Below are positions 43,729 through 52,139 of a stretch of DNA of 62,169 nt, in pieces (position 1 is the stretch's first letter; each line of letters starts with the position of its first letter). The position numbers and the translations under genes are program-made. The stretch comes from Desulfomonilia bacterium (GTDB lineage Bacteria; Desulfobacterota; Desulfomonilia; UBA1062). Under the pieces are notes generated by a model. It was not told where the DNA came from and did no database searches. It saw only the letters and a program-made list of their open reading frames with translations. The DNA is taken from positions 1 to 62,169 of the forward strand of contig DATCTV010000019.1 in NCBI GenBank assembly GCA_036567785.1, written 5' to 3'.

Positions 43729-44232
43729 TTACTTTTCAGTCATGGGGCATTTGCCTGGTTTGAAACATCCTTTTTTGCCGCCCATGCATCTGCCCGGGAA
43801 GTCTTTGCTCCATGCTTTCATCTTTTCAATAAGCTGCTTCTGCTGTTTGGCATCCAGCGTGTTATAAAACTGGGTGAAATAGTCGACCATCTTGACGCCC
43901 GGATTCACATCTGCCGAGAGCTTTTGCCTTATGTCCGCTGCTACGGCATTTAGATCAGGGCTGGCCTTGGCCAGTTCCTTGTCAACTTCGGCATGCATTG
44001 CCTGCATGCGTTCCCTGTGGGCGGTCATGTCCTTTTCTATGCTGGCTTTGATACCGTCGAGGGTTGTTTTTTGGGCGGGTGTAAGGTTGAGGTCTTTCAG
44101 CTCTTTATCGATTATTGCAGTGAAATTGCCCTTTCCTCCGCACCCTGGACCAAAGCCCTGCCTGCAGCCTGCAAACGTCAGAAACGATACCGCTATCAGT
44201 ATGCTCAAAGCGATGAACAATGTCCTTTTCAT
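43729..44232 (-). CDS. Spy/CpxP-like periplasmic lipoprotein
   Basis: A 167-aa protein. A signal peptide ends in a lipobox (LTFAGC, Cys22-23 region), followed by a helical domain with LNLTPAQKTTLDGI and LDAKQQKQL, which fit the LTxxQ repeats of CpxP/Spy. The C-terminus is rich in Cys, Gly and Lys. CpxP proteins restrain the sensor kinase and act as chaperones. The gene is divergent from the RR/HK pair, as cpxP is from cpxRA in E. coli. Confidence 0.82.
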   Translation of the reverse strand: MKRTLFIALSILIAVSFLTFAGCRQGFGPGCGGKGNFTAIIDKELKDLNLTPAQKTTLDGIKASIEKDMTAHRERMQAMHAEVDKELAKASPDLNAVAADIRQKLSADVNPGVKMVDYFTQFYNTLDAKQQKQLIEKMKAWSKDFPGRCMGGKKGCFKPGKCPMTEK

Positions 44233-44381: not shown

Positions 44382-45074
44382 ATGGAAAAGAAAGTCCTTA
44401 TTATAGATGATGACGTAAAGCTCCGGGATCTTTTAAGGGAATATCTCGAAGGGTTCGGCTTTAATGTAAACTGGCTTCCTGACGGGAGCAGGGCCCTGGA
44501 TACAATCAGAGATTTCTCGCCGGATATCGTAATACTCGATATTATGATGCCGGGTGATGACGGGATTGAGGTGCTCAGGAAGATTCGTACGAAATTTACC
44601 GTGCCGGTTGTAATGCTTACAGCCCGGGGTGAGGATTCTGACAGGATAATCGGGCTTGAACTGGGTGCGGATGATTATCTGCCGAAACCCTTCAATCCCA
44701 GGGAACTTCTGGCAAGGATAAAGGCTGTGCTAAGGCGCACTGAAAGCGATAATACTGCTGAAACTTCAGATATCCTGAGGGCCGGAGGCCTTACCCTTGA
44801 CAGACAGAGACAGAAGATAATATTTGAAGGGGACGAATCGGAACTGTCCACGACTGAATTCAAGATAATGGAGGCGTTCATTCAAAGGCCGGGCTCCGTG
44901 CTTTCCAGGGATGAACTGATGAACCTGGCGCGTGGAAGGGATTTCATGGCTTTTGATAGGAGCATTGACGTTCACGTGAGCAGATTAAGGGCCAAACTGG
45001 AAGAGTTGACAGGCAGCAGGGACTGGATAAAGACACACTGGGGTTCAGGATACCTCTTTACAAAGGTGCTATGA
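44382..45074 (+). CDS. OmpR/CpxR-family response regulator
   Basis: A 230-aa two-domain regulator. The receiver domain has the acidic pair IDDDVK, phospho-acceptor Asp in DIVILDIMMPG (about 52), Thr in MLTARG and Lys in LPKPF. The C-terminal winged helix has the usual LSTTEFKIMEAF and VHVSRLRAKL segments. It presumably binds the GTAAA boxes upstream and controls both itself and the CpxP-like gene. The stop overlaps the kinase ATG by 4 bases. Confidence 0.93.
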   Translation: MEKKVLIIDDDVKLRDLLREYLEGFGFNVNWLPDGSRALDTIRDFSPDIVILDIMMPGDDGIEVLRKIRTKFTVPVVMLTARGEDSDRIIGLELGADDYLPKPFNPRELLARIKAVLRRTESDNTAETSDILRAGGLTLDRQRQKIIFEGDESELSTTEFKIMEAFIQRPGSVLSRDELMNLARGRDFMAFDRSIDVHVSRLRAKLEELTGSRDWIKTHWGSGYLFTKVL

Positions 45075-46432
45075 AAACCGGAAAGCTGTATCTTAAATTT
45101 TTCCTGACGTTTGTTGCCATCCTTTTAGTCACTGAAATGCTGATATTCTCTTTTTTCCATTTCATTATCAGCCGCAACATGGATGAACGTATAGCCAACA
45201 TAAACCGCTATACACTTACAAACCTCATAGAAGGCCGTTTCATGAGATCGCCCGGGATTCCTGTTGAAGATAATCCTGAACTCAGGAGACTGTTCTTTGA
45301 GCTAGGCAGAGTTTATAACGCGAAACTCTGGATCACGCATGGCGGCCGTGTAATATGCAGTTCCTCCGATGTCCCGTTCAGCCGTCCCGGCAGTATTTAC
45401 GGCATTCGCTATATGATCAGAGACCAACAGGGTTCTTCTCTGAAGCTGCTCTTTTCGACACCCATCAATCTGCCTAACGGCAGTGTAGGAGTTCTTCACA
45501 TGTCGATGAAACAGCCGCACAGAAGGCCTCATGACATCACATTCGCCATCGGTCTTTCGGCAATAGGCGCGATAATCGCTATAATGCTGTTTCCACTCTA
45601 CAGGTTTATTGCAAAACCCCTTTCTGAACTGAAAGCTGCTGCAATAGGTATTGCGGGAGGAAATCTCTCGGCACGTGTAAATGTTGATAGCAGCGACGAG
45701 ATAGGAGATCTGGCCAACGCATTTAATAAAATGGCAGACAATGTGGAGCGCATGGTAAAATCCACCCGCGAGCTCACTGCAAACATCTCGCATGAACTGC
45801 GCTCGCCACTTGCGCGCATTCTGGTTGCAGAAGAACTGCTTGAGGAAAAACTGGGACAGGCCGAAAACGTTAAGTACTATCTGGAAAGCATCAGGGAAGA
45901 GACCGCCGAGATAGACAGGATGATAGGAGATATCTTAAGGCTGAGCAAACTAGACATGAATGCCGCAAGCGCACAGAAGGAATATTTTGATATTGCGGAA
46001 GTATTGAGAGATCTCCTCGGACGCTGGAATGCATCGGCCGAACATTCCGGCATAGAGCTTGATTCCGATATTCCCGAAACTCCTGTGATGATTCATGCAA
46101 TCAGGGACGACATAGGCCGCGCTCTTGACAACCTGATTGCAAATGCAATCAAGTTCTCGGACAAGAAAGAGCCTGTTTCGGTAAGGCTCGAATTGGATAT
46201 TGACAGTATCCAGATAAGGATAAGGAACACATGCGGCAAACTTTCTGAAGATGATCTTAACAAAATATTTATCCCTTTTTACAGGGTTCCCGGCAGCACA
46301 CAGCAGGGAACCGGGCTTGGTCTTACCATAGCCCGGAAAATTGCCGAAAACAACGGCGGGAGCCTCAATGCCTTATCATGGGAATCCGGCATCGAAATGC
46401 TGTTATCAATTCCGGTTTCCGATAAGGTTTGA
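45071..46432 (+). CDS. CpxA-like sensor histidine kinase
   Basis: A 453-aa membrane kinase. One N-terminal membrane helix (about 8-29), a periplasmic sensor of ~130 residues, a second helix (about 158-178), HAMP (about 180-232), H-box NISHELRSPLARI (about 240-252), and ATPase domain with N-box NLIANAIKFS and G-box GTGLGLTIARKIAENNGG. It phosphorylates the adjacent response regulator. The sensor loop has no recognisable ligand motif; by analogy the signal is envelope protein damage. Confidence 0.92.
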   Translation: MKTGKLYLKFFLTFVAILLVTEMLIFSFFHFIISRNMDERIANINRYTLTNLIEGRFMRSPGIPVEDNPELRRLFFELGRVYNAKLWITHGGRVICSSSDVPFSRPGSIYGIRYMIRDQQGSSLKLLFSTPINLPNGSVGVLHMSMKQPHRRPHDITFAIGLSAIGAIIAIMLFPLYRFIAKPLSELKAAAIGIAGGNLSARVNVDSSDEIGDLANAFNKMADNVERMVKSTRELTANISHELRSPLARILVAEELLEEKLGQAENVKYYLESIREETAEIDRMIGDILRLSKLDMNAASAQKEYFDIAEVLRDLLGRWNASAEHSGIELDSDIPETPVMIHAIRDDIGRALDNLIANAIKFSDKKEPVSVRLELDIDSIQIRIRNTCGKLSEDDLNKIFIPFYRVPGSTQQGTGLGLTIARKIAENNGGSLNALSWESGIEMLLSIPVSDKV

Positions 46433-46499: not shown

Positions 46500-47351
46500 A
46501 TGGATATCTCAGAAAAATCTATTATCTACGTTCCGGACGGTATCGAGCCTGGGGTTGCCCTTGCCCGTACAACCCATATGGCGATAGTTGCGCATCAGGA
46601 CGATGCCGAAATAATTGCGCATGACATAATATCGCAATGCTTTGACAATCCTTTCAAGTGGTTTACCTGTGTAATCGTTTCAGATGGCGCAGGCAGTTCC
46701 AGAAAGGGTAAATATTCAGGAATATCACCTGCAGAGCTTGTAGACATACGGAACAAAGAACAGAAAGAGGCGGCCAGGGTTGGGGACTACGGGGCCCTTG
46801 TCTTGATGGGTCATCCGAGCAGCAAAGTTAAAGGGCCAGGCTATTCGGGTGTAACGGATGAATTGACGAATATTCTGAAATGGGCAAAGCCGGATTACAT
46901 TTATACACACAATCCATTTGACATGCATGATACGCATGTTGCTGTCATGCTGAGGACAATTGATGCACTAAGACAACTTTCTGATGAATACGTACCGGAA
47001 GAGATCTATGGCTGCGAAGTATGGAGGAGCCTGGACTGGCTGCTGCCGGAAGACCGCATACCGATTGATGTTTCGCTCAGGCCGGAGCTTGCCAGGAATC
47101 TTCTGGGCATATTCGAATCTCAGATCGGTTCTGGCAAGCGGTATGATCTTGCCGTGCTGGGCAGAAGGCTTGCAAATGCGACTTTTGACAATGCAGTAAA
47201 ACCTGATTCAACCGAAGCCCTTACATATGCAATTGACCTGAAACCTCTCATAGACAATCCCGGCCTTGATGTCGTCGTATTTGTGAGAAGGTTCATCGAC
47301 AGGTTCAAAGATGACGTCATTAACCGTATAGAAAAGCTCGGGGGCGCCTGA
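46500..47351 (+). CDS. Cytoplasmic PIG-L family deacetylase
   Basis: A 283-aa protein without signal peptide. The zinc motif AHQDDAE (31-37) replaces the common AHPDDE, with further ligand HNPFDMHDTHV. The family removes N-acetyl groups from GlcNAc-containing compounds (GPI precursors, mycothiol precursors, chitobiose). It is first of four genes with junctions of 1, 21 and 4 bases, and the next encodes a SIS sugar-phosphate protein, so an amino-sugar substrate in the cytoplasm is likely. Start at ATG 46500 has no Shine-Dalgarno site. Confidence 0.85.
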   Translation: MDISEKSIIYVPDGIEPGVALARTTHMAIVAHQDDAEIIAHDIISQCFDNPFKWFTCVIVSDGAGSSRKGKYSGISPAELVDIRNKEQKEAARVGDYGALVLMGHPSSKVKGPGYSGVTDELTNILKWAKPDYIYTHNPFDMHDTHVAVMLRTIDALRQLSDEYVPEEIYGCEVWRSLDWLLPEDRIPIDVSLRPELARNLLGIFESQIGSGKRYDLAVLGRRLANATFDNAVKPDSTEALTYAIDLKPLIDNPGLDVVVFVRRFIDRFKDDVINRIEKLGGA

Positions 47352-48349
47352 TGAAAAAGGATGCCCCGGCTTTTAACGTGATCAAGGAAATGTTTGAGGC
47401 ATCCGTGACCATAAGGAATTTTGATCCGGAAGCCGTCAAACCTTTTGCAAAGCTTGCCGAGAAATATGACGCGCTCTTTCTTACAGGCGAGGGCAGCAGC
47501 AGAATGTTTCCTGCAGGCCATGCGGTATGGCTTTCCATGAGATATGAAGGTCTGGCCAGGGTCTTTTCGGCAGGCTCGACTGAGGCCCTTTTTTATGACC
47601 TCAAAGATTTCGCCGTATTTGCAGCGACAAATTCAGGCAGGACAAAAGAGACAGTAAGGCTTCTGAAAATGCTCGGGTCAGTTGGGCACAAAGGGCTTTT
47701 TGCAATCACAAATTCCCGTGGTACTCCTGTCATTGATGCAGCGTGCATGTCATATATGCTTTCCTGCGGTATGGAAAAGGCAATACCTGCCACAAAGAGT
47801 CTTATAGAGCAGGCTTTGTTTTACCATGCCCTGCTTTTTGAAATGGCCGGGGTTTCTCTGGACGGTCTCGAGGAAACTGCAAGCGCTTTTGATGAAACAC
47901 TTTCGCGTGACATATCTCCTGAAATTGTCAAACTGACGGCCGGGGCTTCTTTTATATATTTTGCCGGGTGGAGTAATGGGGTTGCCGAGGAACTTTCCCT
48001 GAAGGCAGGCGAGATTCTGCGTAAAAAGACCAGGTACCTTAACGGCTCTCTGCTGCTGCACGGGATTGAAGAAATAATGGACAAGGGTGAACTCGTCGTT
48101 CTTATTGACCCGTTCGAAGAGGAAGAGGTCGTAATCAAAGAAAGGCTTGAAGAAAATATCGGTGTAAATGTCATTGCAATCTCGGATAGAGAGACCATTT
48201 TCCCGACCATACCGGTTTCTTTAGCGCCGGGTTTTGAGTGTTATGTTCAAATGGCCGCAGCCTGGAATCTGCTGATTGAAGCGAGTCTGATGCTGGGGCT
48301 TGATATCGATCATCCGGCGAGGGTTAAGAAGGTCGGCAATGTTTTCTGA
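47351..48349 (+). CDS. SIS-domain sugar isomerase/deaminase-like protein
   Basis: A 332-aa protein of two SIS domains. The phosphosugar-binding loops are LFLTGEGSSRMFPA (about 43-56) and ATNSGRTKETVRLL (about 96-109). It resembles the isomerase half of glucosamine-6-phosphate synthase and AgaS-type deaminases/isomerases, with no glutaminase domain. The start codon shares its A with the PIG-L stop (TGATG). After deacetylation by PIG-L the amino sugar could be deaminated or isomerised here; this is inference. Confidence 0.85.
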   Translation: MKKDAPAFNVIKEMFEASVTIRNFDPEAVKPFAKLAEKYDALFLTGEGSSRMFPAGHAVWLSMRYEGLARVFSAGSTEALFYDLKDFAVFAATNSGRTKETVRLLKMLGSVGHKGLFAITNSRGTPVIDAACMSYMLSCGMEKAIPATKSLIEQALFYHALLFEMAGVSLDGLEETASAFDETLSRDISPEIVKLTAGASFIYFAGWSNGVAEELSLKAGEILRKKTRYLNGSLLLHGIEEIMDKGELVVLIDPFEEEEVVIKERLEENIGVNVIAISDRETIFPTIPVSLAPGFECYVQMAAAWNLLIEASLMLGLDIDHPARVKKVGNVF

Positions 48350-48370
48350 TTCCCGCATATGGAGAGAAAA

Positions 48371-49156
48371 ATGAAAAAAATTATTTCCGCTGTTGCTGTG
48401 TTAGCAGGGCTGGCTGCACTTTCGGGATGTTCCCATGTCCCCACGGGCAGCCTCCTTGACGGGGTAAAACCGGGGCCTGACGGAAGGATAAATGTTGTTA
48501 CGGTTTTCAGCCATCCTGATGACGAGACATTCTACACGGGCGGTACGCTCATCAAGATGAAGAAAGACCCGAGAGTCAAGCTTCATATTGTATGCCTTAC
48601 AAACGGCAACATGGATGAGGCCAAGGAGAATCTCGGCATTACGAAGGACCAGCTTGGAAAGTTCAGGAAAGAGGAACTCAATCTTGCAGGTCTGGTGCTA
48701 GGCGCGGACAGTGTGGTGTGTCTCGATTATGATGACCAGGGGCTTGAGCCCGCCGACAAAGGTATTATGCTCGGACGAGTTCTGGATGAGATCAACAGGA
48801 ATAATGCGGCAATTATTATTACTCATGATCCTTTCGGACTTTCTGGGCATTCGGACCATATCGTCTGTAATGATATCACAAAAAAGGCGTTTGATGAGTC
48901 GGCTGCGCAGAGGCTTTATTACGTCACCATGACGCCTTGCAGGTACAAGTATAACATGATCTTCGCCCTGTCGGATTCAAAGGCCGAAAAATCAAAGCCG
49001 ACAATCCGTGTTGATATAAGCAGGGAGAAAAAGCTCAAGAAACTAGCACTGTATTCCCATGTGACCCAGGCCAATTTCTCATTCTGGAACTCGATAGCCA
49101 TGACCGAGGACCTCTGGTACAGCTATGAGTATTTCACGCTTGCAGGGCAGAAATGA
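48371..49156 (+). CDS. PIG-L family deacetylase lipoprotein
   Basis: A 261-aa exported PIG-L protein. A signal peptide ends in lipobox LSGC (Cys about 20). The zinc motif is SHPDDETFYTGG and a second ligand lies in GLSGHSDHIVC. It would deacetylate an amino-sugar compound at the envelope. ATG 48371 is preferred over 48359, since GGAGAG fits only the former. It overlaps the patatin gene by 4 bases. Having a cytoplasmic and a lipoprotein PIG-L in one operon is unusual. Confidence 0.87.
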   Translation: MKKIISAVAVLAGLAALSGCSHVPTGSLLDGVKPGPDGRINVVTVFSHPDDETFYTGGTLIKMKKDPRVKLHIVCLTNGNMDEAKENLGITKDQLGKFRKEELNLAGLVLGADSVVCLDYDDQGLEPADKGIMLGRVLDEINRNNAAIIITHDPFGLSGHSDHIVCNDITKKAFDESAAQRLYYVTMTPCRYKYNMIFALSDSKAEKSKPTIRVDISREKKLKKLALYSHVTQANFSFWNSIAMTEDLWYSYEYFTLAGQK

Positions 49157-51366
49157 ACGCCGGATTATTCAAGAATTTATCAAGAATTCTTGTATTAATT
49201 CTTATATTGATAAACACCTCGCCTTTTTGTGCTGAAGCGGAAGAAGACCTGCAGAAACCTTCCAGACCAAAGGTAGCTCTCGTATTGAGCGGCGGAGGTG
49301 CGAGGGGCCTTGCCCATATAGGCGTACTTAAAGTCCTTGAAGATTTAAGGGTTCCCGTCGATATGATAGTCGGCACGAGCATGGGATCAATCGCAGGAGG
49401 CCTTTACGCTAACGGATATTCCCCGGCGCAGCTTGAGGAAATGGTGCTTCATACTCCTTGGGATACACTCTTCTCCAATGACAAGTCGAGGGCTGAACTT
49501 CCTTACAGGAAAAAACCCGATGAAAAGAACTATTTCGTGAATCTGGGCATAGACTATAAGCAGGGCCTCATAATGCCAAAGGCATTGATACCTGCTAAAA
49601 AGTTTGAATTCAGGCTGAGAGCCTGGACTGCCGGGGCCCCTGAAGATTTCAACAGTTTCAGGATACCTTTCAGAGCGGTGGCAACCGATATAGAAACCGG
49701 CAGAACCGTCGTCCTTTCCCATGGAGACCTTGCAAAATCCCTTAGGGCTAGCATGGCGGTTCCTGGAGTGTTCAATCCTGTTGAAATAGAGGGCAAGGTA
49801 CTTGTAGACGGAGGGGTGTCCGACCAGCTTCCGGTGGATGTCGCAAAGAAGATGGGAGCTGATATCATCATCGCCGTCAATGTCGGTACTCAACTCAAGA
49901 AGGCCTCCGAGATCAATTCAATAATCGATGTCACCGATCAGCTCTCCAGAATACTTACCAACAGGACTGTTTTCGATGCCAAAGAACTGCTGGGAAAAGA
50001 TGACATCCTGATCGTGCCCGATCTCATGGGGTTTACTAACATGGATTTTTCAAAGACCTCACAGGAGATAGAACGGGGCGAGCAGGCTGCACTGAACGTC
50101 AGGGACGAACTAATCAGATATTCCGTGTCCGAAGGTGTTTTCAGCAATTATATAAAGAATCAACGGAGGCCAGTCGAGGCTCCTTTCGAATTTATTGAAG
50201 TGGAAACCCCTTTCGGGAATTTCAGGGAAGATATAGAAGTAAAAAGCACCGATATCCAGACAATCATTGACACCAGAATGGTCAACCGCATCATTTTCAA
50301 GAACAGGGAATTCAGCACCGTGGATTTTTCGGTCATTGAGGAAGACGGCAAAAAAGGGTTGCTTTTAAAATCAGAAACCACGGAATGGGAGCCTGATGTT
50401 TTAAAATTCGGTTTCGAGGCCGAAGACGACATCGAGGGAAACGACAATTATAATGTCATGTTCGGCTATACAATGAACTCCATTAACCGCTTTGGCGCCG
50501 ACTGGAAGAATGAGGCCCAGTTCGGACTGACTAACCGTTTTTTCACCGAGTTCTATCAGCCCTTCAGCCCAAAGTTGTGGACGCCTTTTGCCGCGCCCTG
50601 GTTCGAGGCAAAAAACACGTCGGTCTACATATATGATGAAACGCAAAAGGTTGCTGAATACCGTACACGGGAAATTACCGGAGAATTCGATCTGGGTTTC
50701 CAGTTCGGCCGTTTCGGTGAAATAAGAATAGGGATAGGCCGGGGAAATTATCATATCACTCCCAAGATTGCCCCTTTTGACTGGCCGGATGATCAGATTG
50801 CCGATGCAGGGTACTCATGCAAGCTGGTGATCGATACCATAGATAACCTTAATTTCCCGAGATACGGTCTATATTTCGAGGCCGACGGCTTTTTATCCGA
50901 TACTAACCTTGGCGCTGAATATTCCTACGGCATGTATGAGGGGAAGATAGCGGTTCCGCTGACATTCGGCAAAAGCACGATAATGCCGCTTGTTAAAGGA
51001 GGAAGCTGCCGCAGTCTTGATGTAGAACTCGATGGGGTCGTATTCTTTTCGCTCGGGGGATTCCAGAATCTGTCAGGTATGTACCCGGATCAGATACAGG
51101 GAAATCAGATGCTTTTCAGCGAACTCCAGTATTTATACAGGATATGGCATCTGCCCAAGATCATAGGCAGAAATATTTATGCAGGCTTTACGCTGGAGGC
51201 CGGAAATGTATGGAAAGATGCGAGCGACAGCTCCTTGAATGATCTTATAGGAGCAGGCAGCTTATTTGCCGGTCTGGAGACATTGATAGGGCCAATATAT
51301 CTCGCTTATGGCAGGGCGGAAGGTGGACAGAGTGCATTTTATTTTTATCTGGGACACATGTTCTGA
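49153..51366 (+). CDS. Patatin phospholipase with BamA-like barrel (PlpD type)
   Basis: A 737-aa outer-membrane protein. Signal peptide about 1-26; patatin domain about 38-240 with [11 protein letters not shown], the catalytic Ser in [10 protein letters not shown] and Asp in [10 protein letters not shown]; a POTRA-like linker; then an Omp85 16-strand-type barrel ending in Phe (YLGHMF), as needed by the BAM machine. This is the type Vd architecture of Pseudomonas PlpD, a phospholipase A1. It would cleave acyl chains at or outside the cell surface. It is last in the PIG-L/SIS operon, which links lipid cleavage to amino-sugar deacetylation. Confidence 0.92.
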
Positions 51367-51377
51367 CGGAGGGGTTC

Positions 51378-52139
51378 ATGAAAATAATATCATGGAATGT
51401 TAACGGGATAAGGTCTGCCGCAAAGAAAGGTCTCATTGAATGGATTAATTCTGGACAGCCTGATATCCTATGCCTTCAGGAAACAAAAGCGGAGCCCGGA
51501 CAGCTTGAAAAAGCAATCCGGGAGATACCTGGATATTCGAGCTATTTTTCTTCGGCTGAAAAAAAAGGCTACAGCGGGGTTGCGCTTTATACTAAAACCC
51601 TGCCCGTTACCGTTGGCTTCGGGATGGGTGTCCCCAGGTTTGATTCCGAAGGCCGGATGATTATCGCGGAATATGATGAATTTTTCATATTCAATGTCTA
51701 TTTCCCTAACGGAAAGCAGTCACAGGAGAGGCTCGACTATAAGATGGAATTCTATGATGCCTTTCTTGAAACAATGAAAAGCTATCTTGCTATAGGAAAA
51801 GGTATTATTGTCTGCGGGGACGTTAACACCGCGCATACTGAAATCGATCTGGCAAGACCCAGGGAAAACGAAAAGGTATCAGGTTTCCTTCCGATGGAAA
51901 GGGCATGGATTGATAAATTTCTTGCCACCGGATTTGTTGATACGTTCAGGATATTTAACAGCAGCGGTGGTAACTATACCTGGTGGGATCTGAAAAGCGG
52001 GGCAAGGGCCAGAAATGTCGGATGGAGAATAGACTATTTTTTTTCTGACAAGGCCTTTTCTTCAAAGATAAAAAATGCATTTATTCTGCGGGATGTCATG
52101 GGTTCCGATCATTGTCCCATAGGTATAGAGGTTGAATAG
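51378..52139 (+). CDS. xthA: Exodeoxyribonuclease III
   Basis: A 253-aa AP endonuclease/3' exonuclease. Catalytic residues are in [36 protein letters not shown] and GSDHCPI (Asp-His). It repairs abasic sites in DNA. GGAGG precedes the ATG, 11 bases after the patatin gene; it may be read through from that operon but has an unrelated function. Confidence 0.96.

Follow-up and report, generated by a model that had tools for sequence, protein, structure and literature searches.

The 62,169-nucleotide contig DATCTV010000019.1 of a Desulfomonilia bacterium (GenBank assembly GCA_036567785.1), referred to here as the window, contains four tightly packed genes that a sequence-only reading had assigned to a single glycolipid-processing system. 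The gene order proposed there holds: PIG-L, SIS, PIG-L lipoprotein and patatin-barrel open reading frames follow one another on the + strand, separated by -1 bp (g1/g2), +9 bp (g2/g3) and -4 bp (g3/g4).

g1, 46500-47351, + strand, PIG-L protein, 283 amino acids (aa)
g2, 47351-48349, + strand, SIS protein, 332 aa
g3, 48359-49156, + strand, PIG-L lipoprotein, 265 aa; start probably 48371
g4, 49153-51366, + strand, PlpD-like patatin/barrel protein, 737 aa

We consider it reasonably probable that g1 and g2 work together in the cytoplasm as a two-enzyme module for amino-sugar catabolism or recycling, and that the envelope genes g3 and g4 share the run without belonging to that module. This reading is built on gene order, folds, catalytic residues, the neighborhoods of relatives and the absence of NagB and of any NagA above cut-off. 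Catabolism of N-acetylglucosamine (GlcNAc) takes three steps, carried out by a kinase, a deacetylase and a deaminase. In the proposed module, g1 would take the N-acetyl group off an N-acetyl-amino sugar that has been imported or is being recycled, with GlcNAc-6-phosphate the likeliest substrate (step 1). g2 would then open, isomerize and deaminate the amino-sugar phosphate, giving a ketose phosphate such as fructose-6-phosphate, and ammonia (step 2). For both steps the substrate, its phosphorylation state and the direction of reaction are what we infer. The two proteins would jointly replace NagA and NagB. The host genome (97% complete) encodes no PF01182 (NagB) protein and no NagA (TIGR00221) above the cut-off of 225.65. 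g1 and the SIS/PIG-L pairs of this genome are candidates for filling both gaps.

g1 belongs to the PIG-L/LmbE family (PF02585, 51.9 bits against a Pfam gathering threshold of 28.2), and its HxDD...HxxH metal motif is intact as AHQDD...HDTH. The metal/catalytic residues H32, D34, D35, H143 and H146 are invariant in 11 aligned sequences, and the subfamily shares the signature AHxDD...HNPxDxHxTH / EVWxxLDW / GKRYDxAxxGRR. No signal peptide is apparent in the sequence. The AlphaFold model (predicted local distance difference test, pLDDT, 86.5) has diacetylchitobiose deacetylase and BshB among its top folds in the PDB, with Pyrococcus Dac the best, and zinc would be expected by analogy with solved PIG-L relatives. 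We propose from these features that g1 is a cytoplasmic N-acetyl-amino-sugar deacetylase, likely acting on GlcNAc-6-phosphate. It has no match to the NagA model TIGR00221 and would be a functional substitute for NagA, not a member of that family.

g2 is a SIS protein (PF01380, 31.5 bits, above the Pfam gathering score) without the glutaminase half of GlmS, and it falls outside the Glucosamine_iso family of NagB (PF01182/TIGR00502). Its model was built from three sequences and has a pLDDT of 80.9, low near residues 224-237 and at the C-terminus. Foldseek aligned this model with the isomerase domain of GlmS (1mos/1moq/3ooj, template modeling score up to 0.80 by query), as well as with PH0510 and the glucosamine-6-phosphate deaminases of P. 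furiosus and S. maltophilia. Residues E214, E221 and H237 align with the catalytic Glu/Glu/His of GlmS, which we take to be E481, E488 and H504 in the E. coli enzyme, and K327 aligns with the C-terminal Lys of NagB-II. Two SIS subdomains, the Glu/Glu/His set and the C-terminal Lys are thus all present, as in a GlmS-type isomerase fold. The proposed role for g2, again a prediction from sequence, is that of an amino-sugar-6-phosphate deaminase/isomerase acting in place of NagB.

The neighborhoods of g1 relatives point in the same direction. A search of a genome collection with g1 returned 17 loci at 34-51% identity. A profile search for the subfamily was then run on 387 genomes of the Verrucomicrobia-related phylum sampled around L026 (Verrucomicrobia), and found it in 111 of them; neighbors were counted at the best 30 loci of this search. 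A 460-aa ROK-like sugar kinase gene lies upstream on the same strand at 21 of these 30 loci, and a NagB homologue lies directly downstream at eight. The one NagB tested, at L093, passed the TIGR00502 equivalog cut-off (274.5 against 236.9). Kinase, deacetylase and deaminase genes follow one another in this order at L026, L093, L095, L098, L101 and L103. The kinase carries ASKHA/ROK motifs (DLGGSD, NDGxVTALAG, MGTS) and its profile matches the glucokinase structure 2qm1 (E 2e-4); tested members of the family have no Pfam or NCBIfam match. This ASKHA/ROK-like family is itself of interest as an unclassified group directly 5' of g1-type PIG-L genes (L092:2343-3737, L093:2349-3737, L103:59-1447 and five more; alignment A3). 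At L019 (Oceanospirillaceae), a g1 relative with 41% identity directly follows a BadF/NagK_SO3507-like kinase gene. An APH-family kinase, presumably similar to N-acetylhexosamine kinase (NahK), sits beside g1 relatives at eight of the best 30 loci, and a nucleotidyltransferase and a Gfo/Idh oxidoreductase also occur at loci of this kind.

The closest relative of g1 (51%), at L010 in an Ardenticatenia genome, is flanked by a NagB-like gene (78 bits), a PfkB kinase gene and a gene for a deaminase-like, NagB-II/GlmS-like SIS protein, which scores 232 bits with the NagB-II model, below the equivalog cut-off. The wider cluster (L010:5998-14279) includes MttB, two UroD/MtaA-like methyltransferase genes, PfkB, NagB-like, SIS and PIG-L genes, which suggests that demethylation and the breakdown of amino sugars are coupled in that genome. 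A second arrangement occurs in Verrucomicrobia, mostly of subdivision 6 (L013:9510-14130, and the same in L011-L018, L020-L022 and L025), where a GtrA gene upstream overlaps or adjoins the g1 relative and a squalene-hopene cyclase gene lies downstream, followed by a squalene-epoxidase-like gene. There the g1 relative may deacetylate a hopanoid that carries a sugar. Nearer to the host, g1 and g2 have marginal matches only among 60 related genomes (E 1e-4 or worse), and 395 genomes of the host's own phylum hold just three distant relatives of g1. Two of the three directly follow the gene for AnmK, the anhydro-N-acetylmuramic acid kinase (L087:3-2220, checked by Pfam, and L089:1-2223); a peptidoglycan-recycling deacetylase is possible at these loci. 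The patchy distribution of g1, with its nearest relatives in other phyla, suggests from sequence comparison that the gene was acquired laterally.

Relatives of g2 also lie beside PIG-L genes. The host genome has a g2 paralogue on another contig, C62 (43% identical; NagB-II 39.1 bits and GlmD 21.7 bits, both under cut-off), that adjoins two same-strand PIG-L genes of other subfamilies. This cluster (L071:7431-11800) encodes on one strand the SIS protein, a 329-aa PIG-L protein, a 468-aa neutral-ceramidase-like protein and a 254-aa PIG-L protein of the BshB1/Dac (diacetylchitobiose deacetylase)-like type. Both SIS genes of the genome lie no more than 4 kb from one of its five PIG-L genes, an arrangement with p ~1e-4 in a uniform-placement simulation. 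The 395 own-phylum genomes contain one further strong g2 homologue (genome G111), which is followed by a PIG-L gene and surrounded by genes for GH130 phosphorylases, a glycosyltransferase (GT4) and a glucokinase. All three own-phylum loci of the g2 type therefore adjoin PIG-L, two of them with a PIG-L gene outside the g1 subfamily. The third cluster as a whole (L074:613-7147; GH130 phosphorylases, GT4, glucokinase, SIS and PIG-L) looks like a mannosyl-amino-sugar utilization locus; if GH130 frees GlcNAc from mannosyl-GlcNAc, the adjacent kinase, deacetylase and deaminase would finish its breakdown. Elsewhere, g2-type SIS genes gave only weak matches in the genomes of g1 relatives, mostly within GlmS-size frames, and a plasmid search with g2 gave a single weak match (28%).

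Several observations weigh against the g1-g2 module. The exact pair was met in this genome only. No GlcNAc kinase or transporter gene was found near g1. Amidohydrolases of the host genome also match NagA weakly, at no more than 24 bits. g2 was rejected as a NagB-II protein (NF046059, 25.8 bits against an equivalog cut-off of 430; the same fold but another subfamily) and as GlmD (NF041128, no hit at E 0.01, cut-off 580). Twelve to thirteen Verrucomicrobia relatives of g1 sit in the hopanoid locus described above, and the wider subfamily may hold more than one role, a lipid-sugar role included. Four g2 homologues from the Verrucomicrobia-related phylum lack an adjoining PIG-L gene; proteins of the g2 type may therefore serve other functions, and the SIS subfamily may reach beyond amino sugars. 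We know of no enzyme activity for any close relative.

There are three alternatives, each of which we regard as improbable to a similar degree. g2 could have another SIS activity, such as fructosamine-6-phosphate deglycase or ketose-aldose isomerase, and follow g1 by coincidence. Genes near its four Verrucomicrobia-related homologues encode GH3, hydroxyacid dehydrogenase, PfkB and ILVD/EDD proteins instead of PIG-L, and g2 reaches no equivalog cut-off. Against this alternative, PIG-L adjoins every own-phylum g2-type gene, in two cases from outside the g1 subfamily, and g2 keeps the Glu/Glu/His/Lys set of GlmS and NagB-II. It is likewise doubtful that g1 deacetylates a lipid- or nucleotide-linked amino sugar in biosynthesis, for example of a hopanoid or polysaccharide precursor, with g2 as a biosynthetic amino-sugar isomerase. 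The overlap of GtrA, PIG-L and squalene-hopene cyclase genes in Verrucomicrobia would fit such a role, as would the NahK-like kinase, nucleotidyltransferase and Gfo/Idh genes beside other g1 relatives and the envelope-sugar-type surroundings of certain further PIG-L genes in the phylum. The sugar kinase upstream at 21 of 30 loci and NagB directly downstream at eight argue instead for catabolism, and no hopanoid or polysaccharide genes adjoin g1 in the window.

The remaining alternative keeps the g1-g2 module, leaves g4 unrelated and adds g3 as an envelope partner that would remove acetyl groups from GlcNAc oligomers ahead of their uptake, in the manner of chitin degradation that begins with deacetylation. 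g3 is a PIG-L/LmbE protein (PF02585, 91.0 bits against 28.2 in Pfam) with a lipobox, LSGC, and intact catalytic motifs, SHPDDE...HSDH. Its likely start is at 48371, where ATGAAAAAAATT is preceded by GGAGAG; 48359 is less favored. From its sequence, g3 is predicted to be an envelope N-deacetylase. Among proteins of solved structure, its nearest sequence relatives are diacetylchitobiose deacetylases (8bgn, E 7e-7), it lies just 9 bp from g2, and the C62 cluster likewise pairs a SIS gene with a BshB1/diacetylchitobiose-deacetylase-like PIG-L gene, all of which would suit the partnership. On the other side, relatives of g1 and g2 have no close g3 relative next to them, the scanned window genes included no chitinase, glucosaminidase or sugar transporter, and nothing but adjacency backs pre-deacetylation for g1 and g2. 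Among the 60 related genomes g3 has no close relative, the best match being 31% identical (G059), with weaker matches besides. A tie of g3 to g1 and g2 is thus unsupported by relatives.

The sequence-only reading had gone further and joined all four proteins in one pathway, in which g4 strips acyl chains from a glycolipid, g3 acts in the envelope to deacetylate the amino sugar of that glycolipid, and g1 and g2 finish deacetylation and isomerization inside. The individual roles it gave to g1 (cytoplasmic amino-sugar deacetylase), g2 (sugar-phosphate isomerase/deaminase) and g3 (envelope deacetylase) are supported. Its surface phospholipase is an interpretation and was not observed; the lipase domain of the PlpD prototype is periplasmic and not at the surface (PMC11116518). 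The pathway as a whole is very improbable. Close packing on one strand and intact catalytic motifs in all four proteins speak for it, as does the hopanoid locus that some g1 relatives share with a gene for the membrane protein GtrA. Against this, conserved co-occurrence of the four genes, whose failure that reading had itself named as refuting, was not found in searches with all four genes in the 60 related genomes and with g1 and g2 in the 395 of the own phylum. The genes part in relatives, no lipase gene was seen adjoining the examined g1 or g2 relatives, including the kinase-deacetylase-NagB cassettes, and an exonuclease III gene is packed just as tightly as the four. A false lead is thereby removed, no evidence for a four-protein glycolipid system having been found here.

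g4 has a patatin domain (122.1 bits, above the Pfam gathering score) that keeps GGGAR, GTSMG and DGG, and its residues 37-315 match PlpD (5fqu, E 7.8e-70). The barrel falls below the Pfam threshold (Omp85_2, 19.7 against 23.1). Relatives of g4 occur in 48 of the 60 related genomes; eight further genomes from the host's family carry full-length homologues (39-43%), in whose flanks no PIG-L or SIS gene was seen. A plpD mutant is reported to have an altered membrane lipid composition (PMC11116518). Because of this change and the periplasmic position of the PlpD lipase, lipid homeostasis is the default role for g4, which is probably an unrelated neighbor of g1 and g2.

The genes on either side of the run are these:

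LTXXQ-motif protein (Spy/CpxP-like), 43729-44232, - strand, LTXXQ match in Pfam; divergent from the regulator pair
Response regulator, 44382-45074, + strand, Response_reg and Trans_reg_C in Pfam
Sensor kinase, 45071-46432, + strand, HAMP, HisKA and HATPase_c in Pfam
Exonuclease III (xth), 51378-52139, + strand, TIGR00633, 323.8 bits against a cut-off of 99

Since xth starts 11 bp after g4, close packing extends beyond the proposed four-gene operon and the boundary of that operon is arbitrary. Promoter-like and terminator-like matches across the region were no commoner than in shuffled sequence. With these patterns at background and the run continuing past g4, close spacing by itself is not enough to mark the four genes as a functional unit. 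A transcript of just these four genes is neither demonstrated nor refuted, and g1 and g2 would be co-transcribed in the module proposed here. The response regulator/histidine kinase pair stops 67 bp upstream of g1, and the gap is AT-rich. The pair is of a CpxRA-like envelope-stress type and is possibly a regulator of the locus or a plain neighbor.

The g1-g2 module leads to a broader proposal, which we hold more tentatively, at somewhat short of even confidence. The g1 subfamily may be an unrecognized GlcNAc-6-phosphate deacetylase of the PIG-L type that replaces NagA without being homologous to it. In the sampled Verrucomicrobia-related phylum it would be widespread in kinase-deacetylase-deaminase cassettes whose kinase is the unclassified ROK-like protein, and in the present genome its partner would be an unassigned SIS deaminase instead of NagB. 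If true, this would give a function to a large unlabeled PIG-L subfamily, explain the use or recycling of N-acetyl-amino sugars in genomes without NagA and NagB, and correct pathway calls that mark such genomes as unable to use these sugars.

Known systems resemble parts of the run to different degrees. A search of a limited open-access collection found no paper combining the relevant terms, an absence that is weak evidence. PlpD and other type Vd patatin-like outer-membrane proteins join a patatin domain with catalytic Ser-Asp motifs to an Omp85-type barrel of 16 strands with POTRA; in g4 the patatin part is clear, and the putative C-terminal Omp85-type barrel is under the Pfam cut-off. g1 and g3 share the PIG-L fold and metal motif of the bacillithiol and mycothiol deacetylases BshB and MshB and match their NCBIfam models weakly (BshB2, 25 bits for g1 and 71 bits for g3, against a cut-off of 195), and g1 is ruled out as a member by the curated cut-offs. 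The C62 cluster is similar in its SIS gene and two same-strand PIG-L genes but differs in their subfamilies and in the ceramidase-like gene between them. The bacterial Nag pathway (NagK/ROK, NagA, and NagB or the SIS-type NagB-II, as in Shewanella SO3506) has the kinase-deacetylase-deaminase order found around g1 relatives, and the g2 fold resembles NagB-II; unlike in that pathway, the deacetylase is a PIG-L (LmbE fold) protein and not a NagA amidohydrolase. The archaeal Dac/GlmA/GlmD chitobiose pathway of Thermococcus and Pyrococcus also combines a PIG-L deacetylase with a stand-alone SIS-type glucosamine-6-phosphate deaminase, and the structural matches of g1 to Pyrococcus Dac and of g2 to PH0510 and the P. 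furiosus deaminase agree with this. The differences are that g1 is about 15-20% identical to Dac and forms a distinct subfamily, g2 is below the GlmD model, the host is bacterial and GlmA was not seen among the scanned window genes, where no GlmA-aimed search was made. The best explanation by analogy is that g1-g2, with curated membership in neither system, would work like archaeal Dac and GlmD, and like NagA and NagB.

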